DNA from: Pseudomonas protegens
Lineage (GTDB): Bacteria > Pseudomonadota > Gammaproteobacteria > Pseudomonadales > Pseudomonadaceae
Length of the DNA stretch: 64,000 nt
Assembly (NCBI RefSeq): GCF_013407925.2
Contig: NZ_CP060201.1
Coordinates: 992,001-1,056,000, forward strand
Direction: 5' to 3'
Shown here: piece by piece, positions 5,221 through 37,639 of the stretch
Layout of the letters: each line of letters begins with the position of its first letter
Position numbering within the stretch: the first letter of the stretch is position 1
Notes under the pieces: generated by a model
Seen by the model: only the letters and a program-made list of their open reading frames with translations
Database searches by the model: none
Told to the model about the DNA's origin: nothing
Made by a program: the position numbers and the translations under genes

Positions 5221-5437
5221 GCTGCCACCTCGTCCATAAAACGCGAGAGTATCGCTCAGGCGGCAGAAAAAAGGCGTCCACCGGAAGAAAAAACCTCCTG
5301 CCAAGCAACGCCGCCCTGACCAACCCTCAGCCAGGGCCCGTAGCGCCCACCTTGCGCCCCAAGGCCATGGTTTTACGGGCCTTGGCTACAAGGACAGGCG
5401 TTGTTTATTCAGGACTCCCCATTGTCATGGCTCAGTT

Positions 5438-5452
5438 GAAGGTTTAACCTTC
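5438..5452. promoter_or_regulatory. Perfect palindrome upstream of the rtcB-prfH leader
   Basis: GAAGGTTTAACCTTC is a 7-bp inverted repeat around one central base, 37 bases before the leader ORF. It could be an operator or the base of an RNA hairpin; no T-run follows. Confidence 0.4.
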
Positions 5453-5488
5453 GCGCCCCTTCCCACACTTTTGCCAAGGAGATCCACC

Positions 5489-5530
5489 ATGCAACAGCTG
5501 ATCACCCCTTGCAGGACGTGCCTGGTTTAA
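5489..5530 (+). CDS. Possible 13-residue leader peptide of the rtcB-prfH operon
   Basis: ATG 5489 is preceded by AAGGAG at an ideal 7-base distance and opens a 13-codon frame (MQQLITPCRTCLV) ending at TAA 5528-5530. Such a strong ribosome site before so short a frame, about 90 bases upstream of rtcB, suggests a translated leader that could sense ribosome function. It could also be a chance ORF or the remnant of a longer gene. Two Cys in CRTC are the only notable residues. Confidence 0.4.
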   Translation: MQQLITPCRTCLV

Positions 5531-5587
5531 ACGCTGTATCCGCTACCCGTTAGCGCCTTCGCTTAATCCCGCTTCGTCCTGCCACTA

Positions 5588-5611
5588 CCTGACTATTTTT
5601 TTCCAATCAGG
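5588..5611 (+). promoter_or_regulatory. Hairpin that could mask the rtcB ribosome-binding site
   Basis: CCTGA (5588-5592) can pair with TCAGG (5607-5611), which overlaps the AGGA ribosome site of rtcB (5609-5612), across a U-rich loop. The stem is only 5 bp, so this is a suggestion. Confidence 0.3.
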
Positions 5612-5619
5612 AATTGGAC

Positions 5620-6753
5620 ATGGACACTTGCATCCGTCATTTGTCGAACGGCGTCTCGCTGATCGCCTCAGACACCACCTGGATCGAAGATAAAGCGCTC
5701 CAGCAACTGCAAACCACCGCCCAACTGCCCGGCATGCGCCAGGTGGTCGGCATGCCGGACCTGCACCCAGGCCGAGGCTACCCGGTGGGAGCAGCATTCT
5801 TTTCCACTGAAATGGCCTACCCGGCCCTGGTGGGCAACGACATCGGCTGCGGCATGACGCTGTGGCAAACCGATCTTTCCAGCAGCCGCCTCAACCTCGA
5901 CAAGCTGGAGAAAAAAATCGGCAACATCGATCTCCCTCTGGATGAACAGTGGGATGAAGAGCGAGCGCAGCTGGGACTGCCCGTCAACGGCCATGAACAC
6001 TCACTGGGCACCATCGGTGGCGGCAATCACTTTGCCGAGCTGCAACAGCTCGACCAGGTGTACGACGCCAGCGCCGTGCAGGCCCTGGAGCTGAATCCCA
6101 AAGCCTTGTTGCTGCTGGTGCACAGCGGCTCCCGGGGCCTGGGAGAAGCCATCCTGCGGCGTCATGTGGACCAGCACGGTCACAACGGCCTGGCCATGGC
6201 CAGCGCCGCCGGCGCTCAGTACTTGCAAGAGCACGACGCGGCCCTGCGTTTCGCCGAGGCCAACCGACGATTGATCGCCGAACGCCTGCTGCACAACCTG
6301 CGGGCCAAGGGACGCTCGATTCTGGACATCAACCACAACCTGGTATCACCAGCGAATATCGACGGTATTACGGGCTGGCTGCATCGCAAGGGCGCTACAC
6401 CGTCGGACCAGGGTCCGGTGGTCATCCCGGGCTCCCGGGGCGACTACAGCTATCTGGTACACCCCATACCGGCAACTGCCAGCCTCTACTCCCTGGCCCA
6501 CGGCGCCGGGCGCAAATGGCTGCGCAGCGATTGCAAAGGCAGGCTGGCTGCGCGCTTCAGCTTCGACCAGCTCAAGCGCACTCAACTGGGCAGCCGGGTG
6601 ATCTGCGAAGACCGCGGATTGATGTACGAGGAAGCGCCCGAAGCCTACAAGAGCATCGACAGCGTGGTCGGCAGCCTGAGGGATGCCGGCCTGGTGCAGA
6701 TCATCGCGCGGCTCAAGCCGGTACTGACCTACAAACGCCGGGGGTGCTGCTGA
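5620..6753 (+). CDS. rtcB: RtcB-family RNA ligase of the PrfH-linked type (RtcB2)
   Basis: A 377-residue protein with RtcB landmarks: MPDLHPGRG (about 45-53), NDIGCGM with metal-ligand Cys77, GGGNHF (133-138), a SGSRG stretch and HGAGRK with the nucleophilic His294 that takes up GMP. RtcB joins RNA 3'-phosphate or 2',3'-cyclic phosphate ends to 5'-OH ends with GTP and Mn. ATG 5620 is chosen over TTG 5614 because AGGA lies 7 bases upstream. The gene overlaps prfH (stop TGA 6751-6753, prfH ATG 6753-6755), implying coupled translation. That pairing is known elsewhere: RtcB2 repairs 16S rRNA cut at the decoding centre while PrfH rescues stalled damaged ribosomes. The function here is inferred from the pair. 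Confidence 0.9.
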
Positions 6754-7370
6754 TGCTGCTGTTACAACTGTCTTCCGCCCAGGGACCCGCCGAGTGCGAA
6801 CTGGCGGTGACCAAGGCCCTGCAACTCCTGTATCGCGAAGCCGAGGCACACAGCGTGCGTGCCAGCCTCGTCGAGCAGGTAGCCGGCCAGGGCCGGGGTA
6901 CCCACAGATCGGTATTGGTCAGCCTTGATGGCGAACAGGCTGCGGCACTGGCCGAACGCTGGACCGGCACCCTGCTCTGGACCTGCAAGAGCCCCTATCG
7001 CCCCGGATACAAACGCAAGAACTGGTATTTCGCCGGTCAACTGTTCAAGGCTCCAGAGGACAGCATGGACGGCGCGATCCGCTTCGAAGCCATGCGCGCA
7101 TCAGGCCCGGGCGGGCAACACGTGAACACCACGGATTCCGCGGTGCGCGCCACGCACCTGGCCAGTGGCATCAGCGTGAAAGTGCAGTCAGAGCGCAGCC
7201 AGCACGACAACAAGCGCGTTGCGCGCCTGCTGATCCAGCAACGCCTGGCAGATCGGCAACAGCAATCCGCAGAGGCGCTGCGCCTGCAACGCCGCGACGG
7301 CCACCACAGCGTGGAGCGCGGCAACCCGGTGCGCAGCTTCAACGGCGAGGGGTTCATCGCGCAGAACTGA
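6753..7370 (+). CDS. prfH: PrfH, release-factor homologue for damaged ribosomes
   Basis: A 205-residue class I release factor relative. The GGQ motif that triggers peptidyl-tRNA hydrolysis sits at residues 120-122 in a [15 protein letters not shown] context, followed by the usual helix with basic residues ([10 protein letters not shown]). It is much shorter than RF1/RF2 (about 360 residues): the N-terminal domain is missing and the codon-recognition domain is reduced, as in PrfH. PrfH acts on ribosomes cleaved in the 16S decoding region. It overlaps the upstream RtcB-type ligase gene by one base, so the two act as a rescue-then-repair unit. The long in-frame extension upstream to 6516 lies inside rtcB and is not used. 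Confidence 0.9.
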
Positions 7371-33100: not shown

Positions 33101-33547
33101 TTAGTGTTGCAGAGCCGGCTGCTGCGCACCGTTGATCGGGATGCGCTTTGGCTTGGCCTCTTCCGGTACAACCCGCAGCAGGTCGATGTTCAACAGACCG
33201 TTGCTCAGGGCCGCGGCCTTGACCTCGATATGGTCGGCCAGACGGAAGGACAGCTTGAATGCACGCTGGGCAATGCCCTGGTGCAGGTAGGTGACACTTT
33301 CATTGGCGTCGCGCTTGCCACCGCTCACGGTCAACACACCTTTCTCCACTTGCAGGTCCAGGTCTTCTTCCTGGAAGCCGGCAGCCGCGATGACGATGCG
33401 GTATTGGTCGTCGGCGTGTTTTTCAACGTTGTAGGGTGGATAGCTGCTGCTCGGTTCGTTGCGCAACGCCGATTCGAACAGATCGTTGAAACGGTCGAAG
33501 CCAACAGAGGAACGGAACAGTGGAGCCAGGGAAAATGCAGTACTCAT
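33101..33547 (-). CDS. ibpA: Small heat-shock protein of the IbpA/Hsp20 family
   Basis: A 148-residue alpha-crystallin-domain chaperone: N-terminal FRSSVGFDRFNDLFESAL, the core domain (about 38-130) and a C-terminal tail with KRIPI, the I-x-I type anchor for oligomers. It holds unfolding proteins in solution during heat stress for refolding by DnaK/ClpB. Upstream lie a sigma-32-type promoter and a ROSE-like thermometer, so control is expected both in transcription and in translation. Confidence 0.95.
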   Translation of the reverse strand: MSTAFSLAPLFRSSVGFDRFNDLFESALRNEPSSSYPPYNVEKHADDQYRIVIAAAGFQEEDLDLQVEKGVLTVSGGKRDANESVTYLHQGIAQRAFKLSFRLADHIEVKAAALSNGLLNIDLLRVVPEEAKPKRIPINGAQQPALQH

Positions 33548-33612
33548 GGGTCTATCTCCTGATATTTCAGCGAGTGGTTATCTCCGCGACCCGAATTCGG
33601 CGTCGCGTACCC
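33548..33612 (-). promoter_or_regulatory. ROSE-like RNA thermometer in the ibpA leader
   Basis: On the minus strand the leader has TCGCT (complement of 33569-33573) facing the ribosome-site AGGA (complement of 33557-33560). UCGCU fits the ROSE consensus UYGCU, pairing with AGGA around a bulged G. Upstream GC-rich repeats around 33575-33610 could form the other stems. Heat would melt the pairing and free translation. Confidence 0.7.
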
Positions 33613-36845: not shown

Positions 36846-36921
36846 TGGCGTCCCCTAGGGGACTCGAACCCCTGTTACCGCCGTGAAAGGGCGGTGTCCT
36901 AGGCCACTAGACGAAGGGGAC
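36846..36921 (-). tRNA. tRNA-Glu (anticodon TTC), copy 1
   Basis: 76-base minus-strand cloverleaf; acceptor GTCCCCT with AGGGGAC, encoded CCA, anticodon loop CTTTCAC (TTC). It is the last gene of the array in transcription order. Confidence 0.95.
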
Positions 36922-36998
36922 ACAAACCTTCTGACAGCTGACCAGCGCTGAGTACTGGTCGATTCAAGGCCGGAGTGGCCAGGCCTTGAACTGTAAAT
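36922..36998 (-). repeat. Ala-Glu tRNA spacer with two hairpins, copy 1
   Basis: Hairpin A: GACCAG (36940-36945) with CTGGTC (36955-36960). Hairpin B: TCAAGGCC (36964-36971) with GGCCTTGA (36982-36989). The same arrangement recurs in two other copies, with compensatory changes in hairpin A. Confidence 0.85.
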
Positions 36999-37074
<76 letters not shown>

Positions 37075-37126
37075 GGATTTTCGCCTCGCGGCGCAGCGAC
37101 ATCTTGCAACATCGCTTGTGTGAAAC

Positions 37127-37202
37127 TGGCGTCCCCTAGGGGACTCGAACCCCTGTTACCGCCGTGAAAGGGCGGTGTCCTAGGCCACTAGACGAAGGGG
37201 AC
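37127..37202 (-). tRNA. tRNA-Glu (anticodon TTC), copy 2
   Basis: Identical to the copy at 36846-36921, 281 bases away. Confidence 0.95.
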
Positions 37203-37281
37203 GCAAACCCTTCTATACAACTGATCGGTGCTGAGTACCGATCGATTCAAGGCCGGTGTGGCCAGGCCTTGAACTGTAAAT
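37203..37281 (-). repeat. Ala-Glu tRNA spacer with two hairpins, copy 2
   Basis: Hairpin A is GATCGG (37223-37228) with CCGATC (37238-37243); hairpin B is unchanged from copy 1. Confidence 0.85.
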
Positions 37282-37357
<76 letters not shown>

Positions 37358-37409
37358 GGATTTTCGCCTCGCGGCGCAGCGACATCTTGCAACATCGCTT
37401 GTGTGAAAC

Positions 37410-37485
37410 TGGCGTCCCCTAGGGGACTCGAACCCCTGTTACCGCCGTGAAAGGGCGGTGTCCTAGGCCACTAGACGAAGGGGAC
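37410..37485 (-). tRNA. tRNA-Glu (anticodon TTC), copy 3
   Basis: Identical to the two other tRNA-Glu copies, 283 bases from copy 2. Confidence 0.95.
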
Positions 37486-37563
37486 ACAAACCTTCTATAC
37501 AACTGATCAGTGCTGAGTACTGATCGATTCAAGGCCGGTGTGGCCAGGCCTTGAACTGTAAAT
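37486..37563 (-). repeat. Ala-Glu tRNA spacer with two hairpins, copy 3
   Basis: Hairpin A is GATCAG (37505-37510) with CTGATC (37520-37525); hairpin B is unchanged. Confidence 0.85.

Positions 37564-37639
<76 letters not shown>

Follow-up and report, generated by a model that had tools for sequence, protein, structure and literature searches.

In the window, as we call the whole stretch of 64,000 nucleotides analysed here, the rtcB2 and prfH genes probably constitute a ribosome rescue-and-repair operon whose leader acts as a switch sensing how well translation proceeds, a mechanism that we infer from conserved pairings and computed folding. The leader, so far known from one drug-efflux pathway of P. 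aeruginosa, looks like a general ribosome-repair switch present in many bacteria. Like leader attenuators, it combines a short ORF led by a Shine-Dalgarno (SD) sequence with two competing RNA pairings, one between arms 2 and 3, supported by covariation, and another between arms 3 and 4, supported by folding against shuffled controls (Table 1).

Table 1. Features of the leader and of the rtcB2-prfH operon, in positions of the window
Feature	Position	Strand	Description and evidence
Candidate sigma70-like promoter	5422..5450	+	-35 TTGTCA 5422-5427, 17-nt spacer, -10 TAACCT 5445-5450
SD of the leader ORF	5476..5481	+	AAGGAG; sequence, strong SD kept across related loci
Leader ORF	5489..5530	+	13 codons, MQQLITPCRTCLV; counterpart of PA5471.1; conserved SD-led ORF
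Arm 2	5511..5518	+	GCAGGACG; within the leader ORF, pairs with arm 3; compensatory changes
Arm 3	5575..5582	+	CGTCCTGC; complement of arm 2; 5576-5592 doubles as 5' side of the 3:4 helix
Arm 4	5607..5625	+	rtcB2 SD (AGGA 5609-5612) with the first two codons; arm 3 is predicted to close it; folding, window z -3.25
rtcB2	5620..6753	+	RtcB-family RNA ligase, 377 aa; armZ/PA5471 orthologue; family, residue and tree evidence
prfH	6753..7370	+	peptide chain release factor H, 205 aa; PA5470 homologue; family and residue evidence

The gene pair and the start of rtcB2

The two overlapping forward genes described in the earlier note were borne out: the rtcB2 stop codon (6751-6753) and the prfH ATG (6753-6755) share one base in TGATG. 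This overlap is exact in 24 of 25 other loci with the same gene order, which argues that it is not due to chance; both genes were placed in 26 loci, L073 being left out for its interrupted rtcB2 frame, and the exception is L093, where the genes lie about 43 nt apart with an extrapolated start. The window proteins pass their family cut-offs, RtcB2 with 624.9 bits against TIGR03073 (cut-off 271.8) and PrfH with 305.5 bits against TIGR03072 (cut-off 166.65). RtcB2 also contains PF01139, the RtcB family domain, and the active-site motifs. The catalytic residues are exactly where the same note had placed them: Cys77 and His294 of RtcB2 which, with their adjacent motifs, we take to be the metal/guanylylation residues of RtcB, and GGQ 120-122 of PrfH. 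The nearest PDB PrfH chains are 7sa4 and 9mor, and the window PrfH aligns with the former across residues 1-202. It lacks RF domain 1, E. coli RF2 being matched only from about its residue 134.

The RtcB phylogeny proposed in that note as a check places the window protein on the RtcB2 side, and rules out the tRNA-repair type for it. In a tree of 60 proteins, built by a quick method with SH-aLRT as its support, it falls among 37 RtcB2 proteins split from 22 canonical RtcBs (SH-aLRT 99). Within them, a subset of 26 proteins (SH-aLRT 99) unites it with E. coli RtcB2 (L212) and P. aeruginosa ArmZ (L132). Canonical RtcB, encoded in the RNA repair operon with Rsr, shares PF01139 and the active-site motifs but belongs to a different clade, and its open frames count at least 398 residues in the 22 proteins, compared with 377 in the window RtcB2. 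This genome encodes two further RtcBs, both below the TIGR03073 cut-off. One is canonical, with an Rsr homologue nearby (C1:728637); the other, of a different type (L002, or L090:6286-7752; C1:5952525), sits on a very long branch of the tree. Among 144 relatives, sub-cut-off TIGR03073 matches of 124-135 bits (the next one at 112) are confined to RtcB2-bearing genomes (G000, G061, G071, G073, G121), a restriction that may reflect shared descent.

The gene start that had been given earlier, at 5489, did not hold. This position is actually the ATG of the leader ORF, in a frame different from that of rtcB2, which shuts at TAA 5528-5530 after 13 codons; rtcB2 begins at ATG 5620, and a stop in its own frame upstream ends at 5592. 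The leader ORF and the RNA switch had thus been merged into rtcB2. A search with the sigma70 consensus boxes gave the candidate promoter of Table 1. Of 76 related loci, 40 have comparable boxes 20-110 nt 5' of the ATG of the leader, versus 15 of 790 shuffled controls, while a stricter promoter scan returned none at 5422-5450. No Rfam family matched over the leader at gathering level.

Competing pairings in the leader RNA

The core bases of the first pairing are UGCAGG in arm 2, inside the ORF, and CCUGC in arm 3, downstream of it. The leader pattern was detected in 100 of 104 upstream regions screened (80 loci, the window and 23 more; without L073, L092 and L093), corresponding to 82 distinct leaders. 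Nine of these, including that of P. aeruginosa, were dropped because they start more than 160 nt upstream, and thinning at 92% identity reduced the other 73 to 39 which, together with the window, form alignment A1 of 40 leaders. Without any supplied structure, RNAalifold chose the arm 2:arm 3 helix (6 pairs) and two inner G-C pairs. In this helix 95.0% of 320 cells are paired versus 86.9% in shuffled alignments. Both sides have changed at six of eight pairs (2.8 after shuffling, with 2 of 500 shuffles as high), and 22 cells carry double changes versus 4.9; when the partners are slid by 1-3 columns, 22-51% of cells are paired. The measure of further pair types was not significant for this helix (53 of 500 shuffles). 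An exact-complement test (at least 6 bases) was passed by 35 of 79 loci but also by 5 of 5 and 5 of 7 control ORFs; since it does not discriminate, it was set aside.

The two conserved codons underlying arm 2 read TGC AGG in 29 of the 40 leaders, TGC AGA in five, TTC AGG in three, TGC GGG in two and TTC GGG in one; the synonymous TGT and CGN are absent among them. Cys and Arg codons are thereby swapped to Phe and Gly with most 2:3 pairs still kept. In the leader of L177 (MKNTLLPFADLFS), the arm UUUGCAGA is even preserved in another frame (TTT GCA GAT, Phe-Ala-Asp), with UCUGC downstream. These codon changes sparing the pairs, and this change of frame, suggest that it is the RNA pairing, rather than the peptide, that is conserved. 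In leader attenuators of the erm type, it is a drug-bound arrest peptide that causes stalling, at a fixed codon. The window leader would resemble them in that where the ribosome stands on a short ORF determines whether the start of the next gene is accessible, but differs in conserving RNA pairing rather than peptide.

For the second pairing, the RNA was folded by itself from arm 3 through codon 4 of rtcB2; arm 3 then pairs with the SD, the start codon or the second codon of that gene. Ten or more pairs link arm 3 to arm 4 in 39 of the 40 leaders versus 38% of shuffles. The energy of this stretch has a mean z of -1.15, below -1 in half of the 40 leaders and above 0 in five; the MFE of the whole window leader is not unusual (z -0.89). 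We then modelled the ribosome by masking either the end of the ORF (ribosome at the stop codon) or its start (ribosome stalled at initiation), folding being computed at equilibrium and per strand, without cotranscriptional kinetics. With the ribosome at stop, the mean energy needed to open the rtcB2 start is 2.62 kcal/mol higher than with it at start. The difference is positive in 32 of the 40 leaders and not in the other 8, which include several enteric ones. When the ORF alone is shuffled, the mean difference becomes -1.01 (15 sets; SD of set means 0.58); 37 of 40 leaders lie above their own null mean and 24 above all 15 shuffles, the window reaching 5.6 kcal/mol compared with at most 0.7. 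As shuffling of the ORF abolishes the difference, its bases appear to be arranged so that finished translation closes rtcB2.

Distribution of the leader and its linkage to prfH

RtcB2 loci were sampled as the best 80 of 133 confirmed, 79 of them with at least 300 nt upstream (L154, with just 100 nt, is outside this count). A strong SD and an ATG ORF of 12-16 codons stand ahead of rtcB2 in 74 of the 79; the same arrangement turns up in 5 of 1580 shuffles that preserve dinucleotides and in 7 of 1520 stretches drawn at random from the same loci (0.3-0.5%). Five loci fail this strict count, namely L150 and L166, which nonetheless fit the leader model R1 described below, and three from Undibacterium, which carry a 20-codon ORF instead. 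Leaders occur in Pseudomonas, Gallionellaceae, Cupriavidus, Enterobacteriaceae, Pectobacterium, Lonsdalea, Xenorhabdus, Budvicia, Marinobacterium and others. The core of the peptide is most often TLCR or LCR, and the residues outside Cys-Arg vary.

The covariance model R1 was built from 28 leader sequences. In the genus of the window, PrfH is found above cut-off in 25 of 398 genomes; R1 matches 24 of these 25, once each, missing G362, and none of the 373 genomes without prfH at E 0.001, in a search with strict filters and 7 candidates scored per genome, where weak matches may be lost. Part of the matches are training sequences or near copies of them, so the silence of the other genomes is the telling part. 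In a held-out test on 22 chosen loci, R1 matched nine non-training loci directly before rtcB2 with E of at most 2.6e-4 (L132, L133, L143, L149, L150, L158, L160, L166, L177), as well as L073 and the training locus L212. Matches are weak in the divergent loci L084, L156, L163 and L172 (E 0.07-0.42, none reaching 0.01), and L151 gave none.

Among five distant RtcB2s added by a class-level search, one (L177) has the leader and four do not. R1 found nothing before rtcB2 in L178-L181, L092 and L093 and, by model and scan together, the leader is missing in these six more distant RtcB2s. With the most distant RtcB2s devoid of it, the leader is old but not universal. L181 and L092, leader-less according to R1, possess some other SD-led short ORF. 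In L092 (G121) this ORF, MLYYITNQQQNTGQGNKVAW, lies between 171 and 108 nt upstream of rtcB2, and inspection by eye shows a complementary sequence downstream of it; perhaps this is an independent attenuator.

Related operons and the proposed role of the switch

In P. aeruginosa PA7 (L132), the leader MIQFSTLCRLRLA displays the same TLCR core and the same arm 2 and arm 3 bases, and fits R1 at 55.3 bits from outside the training set. Its start is 123 nt farther from rtcB2 than in the window. The PA7 RtcB2 homologue, ArmZ, has the same catalytic motifs, and the window RtcB2 is 66% identical to it. Both operons have the leader before their first gene, whose control by it has been reported for P. 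aeruginosa (PMC12057347, PMC13041342). The third and fourth residues reported for PA5471.1, Q3 and F4 (PMC13041342), are those of the PA7 leader, so that PA5471.1-armZ-PA5470 and rtcB2-prfH are one and the same operon, and armZ is rtcB2. A 2025 review presents ArmZ as an RtcB-like ligase and PA5470 as prfH, and states that MexXY seems to be the only case of an anti-repressor under the control of a leader peptide (PMC12057347). The P. aeruginosa operon is induced by ribosome-targeting drugs in general (PMC12057347, PMC13041342). In PA7, the prfH frame after armZ ends early (147 codons read, the later part not PrfH-like by eye), and prfH may be broken there.

The E. coli operon consists of the same two genes, with an RtcB2 from the same clade, and protection against colicin E3 has been demonstrated for it (PMC9223846), whereas the window operon is known from its sequence. 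In E. coli ATCC 11775 (L212), the one strain in which the leader was read and a training sequence of R1, the leader MTNPLSMTLCRPFQD with matching arms lies between yafP and rtcB2, where no feature is annotated. PMC9223846 describes no leader: the word 'upstream' is absent from it, and it is not one of the papers in which rtcB2 occurs together with 'leader peptide'. A Klebsiella query including the leader is covered over at least 80% in 2649 of 5426 E. coli genomes, and the ten best matches listed start at its base 64, within the leader ORF. In ATCC 11775 (L212:243-3339), rtcB2-prfH directly follows dinB-yafN-yafO-yafP, a cluster of DNA-damage polymerase and toxin-antitoxin genes.

We propose that in a healthy cell ribosomes would translate the leader ORF right through to the stop codon, masking arm 2 and leaving arm 3 to fold onto arm 4 and rtcB2-prfH mostly silent. 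Failed initiation or early elongation, caused by decoding-centre cleavage or by ribosome-targeting drugs, would leave arm 2 bare to pair with arm 3, freeing the rtcB2 start. RtcB2 would then be translated, with coupling through the overlap yielding PrfH. By analogy with what is reported for the E. coli pair, PrfH would free the stalled chain and RtcB2 reseal the 16S rRNA. Failure to read an ORF of about 13-15 codons would in this way open rtcB2, so that damage to ribosomes calls up their repair, which explains how a repair system could stay quiet until needed. The view of the operon as an anti-toxin recovery system, put forward in the earlier note, is probably too narrow, since the switch appears to sense failing translation and not E3 cleavage as such.

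How the leader would exert its control could be conceived otherwise. Authors working on P. aeruginosa mostly favour transcription attenuation via a terminator (PMC12057347, PMC13041342), one paper terming the PA5471.1 mechanism translational (PMC3575510). If the published model applied here, the state of translation on the same leader would set an intrinsic or Rho-dependent terminator before rtcB2, as for armZ, and there is indeed a U-rich stretch between arms 3 and 4. However, this run sits in the 3:4 loop and not directly after a hairpin, a simple scan of the forward strand over 5473-5643 (stems with loops of 3-8) retrieved no site resembling an intrinsic terminator, and arm 4 is itself the ribosome-binding site and start codon. 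Transcription attenuation seems to us unlikely, though worth keeping in mind, and translational control is favoured. It is far less plausible that the leader amounts to no more than an untranslated structured element, or to a remnant, with an incidental ORF and an rtcB2-prfH pair that is constitutive or controlled by a protein. The variable peptide outside the Cys-Arg core, and the residue and frame changes that keep the RNA pairing, would fit such an element, but it leaves aside the frequency of the SD-led ORF (74 of 79 loci, as opposed to 0.3-0.5% of the controls) and the dependence of the computed switch on base order within the ORF. Moreover, leader translation does matter in P. aeruginosa, where ArmZ rises if PA5471.1 carries a stop at codon 3 (PMC13041342).

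Another question concerns the output of the operon. In P. aeruginosa it is wired to MexZ/MexXY, ArmZ also relieving MexZ, and the 66% identity to PA7 ArmZ together with the shared leader could mean that anti-repression of an efflux regulator, and not rRNA repair, is its main job in the window. The intact ligase motifs and a search for MexX speak against this. MexX was chosen as query because the TetR-like frame beside PA7 mexX (L176) looks interrupted, so that MexZ was abandoned; the query is the PA7 protein passing the MexX/AxyX family (633.7 versus 512 bits). Its best match in the window genome has 46% identity and 353.6 bits, below the cut-off of 512, and across the genus the 25 genomes with prfH yield 50% at best, the next-best paralogue of PA7 itself standing at 45%. 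Compared with PA7, the window displays the PA5471 homology and a PA5471.1-type leader, and its genome no MexX over the cut-off. We give anti-repression as the main job the lowest credence of the readings weighed here; with no MexX over the cut-off in this genome, ribosome repair is the likeliest role.

That the leader persists although the MexX search did not find MexXY, its known output, also argues that repair is the older function. We lean towards the view that the leader is the ancestral general sensor of ribosome damage for rtcB2-prfH in beta- and gammaproteobacteria, the MexZ-MexXY wiring being a later co-option. If so, exposure to ribosome-targeting drugs would switch on the repair genes of many species, among them E. 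coli strains whose operon is intact; the anti-E3 operon of E. coli would gain a regulatory element, unannotated so far. This reading brings together the drug inducibility of ArmZ/MexXY and the RtcB2-PrfH repair of colicin-cut ribosomes, which are kept apart in the literature searched; among open-licence papers we found none joining the leader to ribosome repair, or PA5471 to colicin E3. It also makes testable why a homologue of RtcB ligase serves as an efflux anti-repressor, the damage signal having come first on this reading.

Of the 398 genomes of the genus, 174 encode the E3-type nuclease domain PF09000, and a threat of this type therefore exists there. The domain was not found in the window genome, in a search where control genomes were silent for it as well. 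The domain is rarer together with prfH (2 of 25 genomes versus 172 of 373 others; Fisher p 1e-4, uncorrected for kinship), and producers could rely on immunity proteins. Concerning its genomic place, the operon of the near relatives of the window keeps its position before tRNA-Val in 8 examined loci besides the window, according to blast and tRNA searches, and six other loci have a tRNA-Met no more than 2.1 kb away from the rtcB2 start. In L073 (G409), the leader and first codons are separated by about 2.6 kb from the remaining rtcB2, whose protein match starts at residue 52, a split consistent with an insertion. Elsewhere in the window, the reverse strand carries a tRNA-Glu/tRNA-Ala pair in three tandem copies (36846-37639) and a match to the ROSE_3 RNA thermometer (33542-33609, 70.2 bits).
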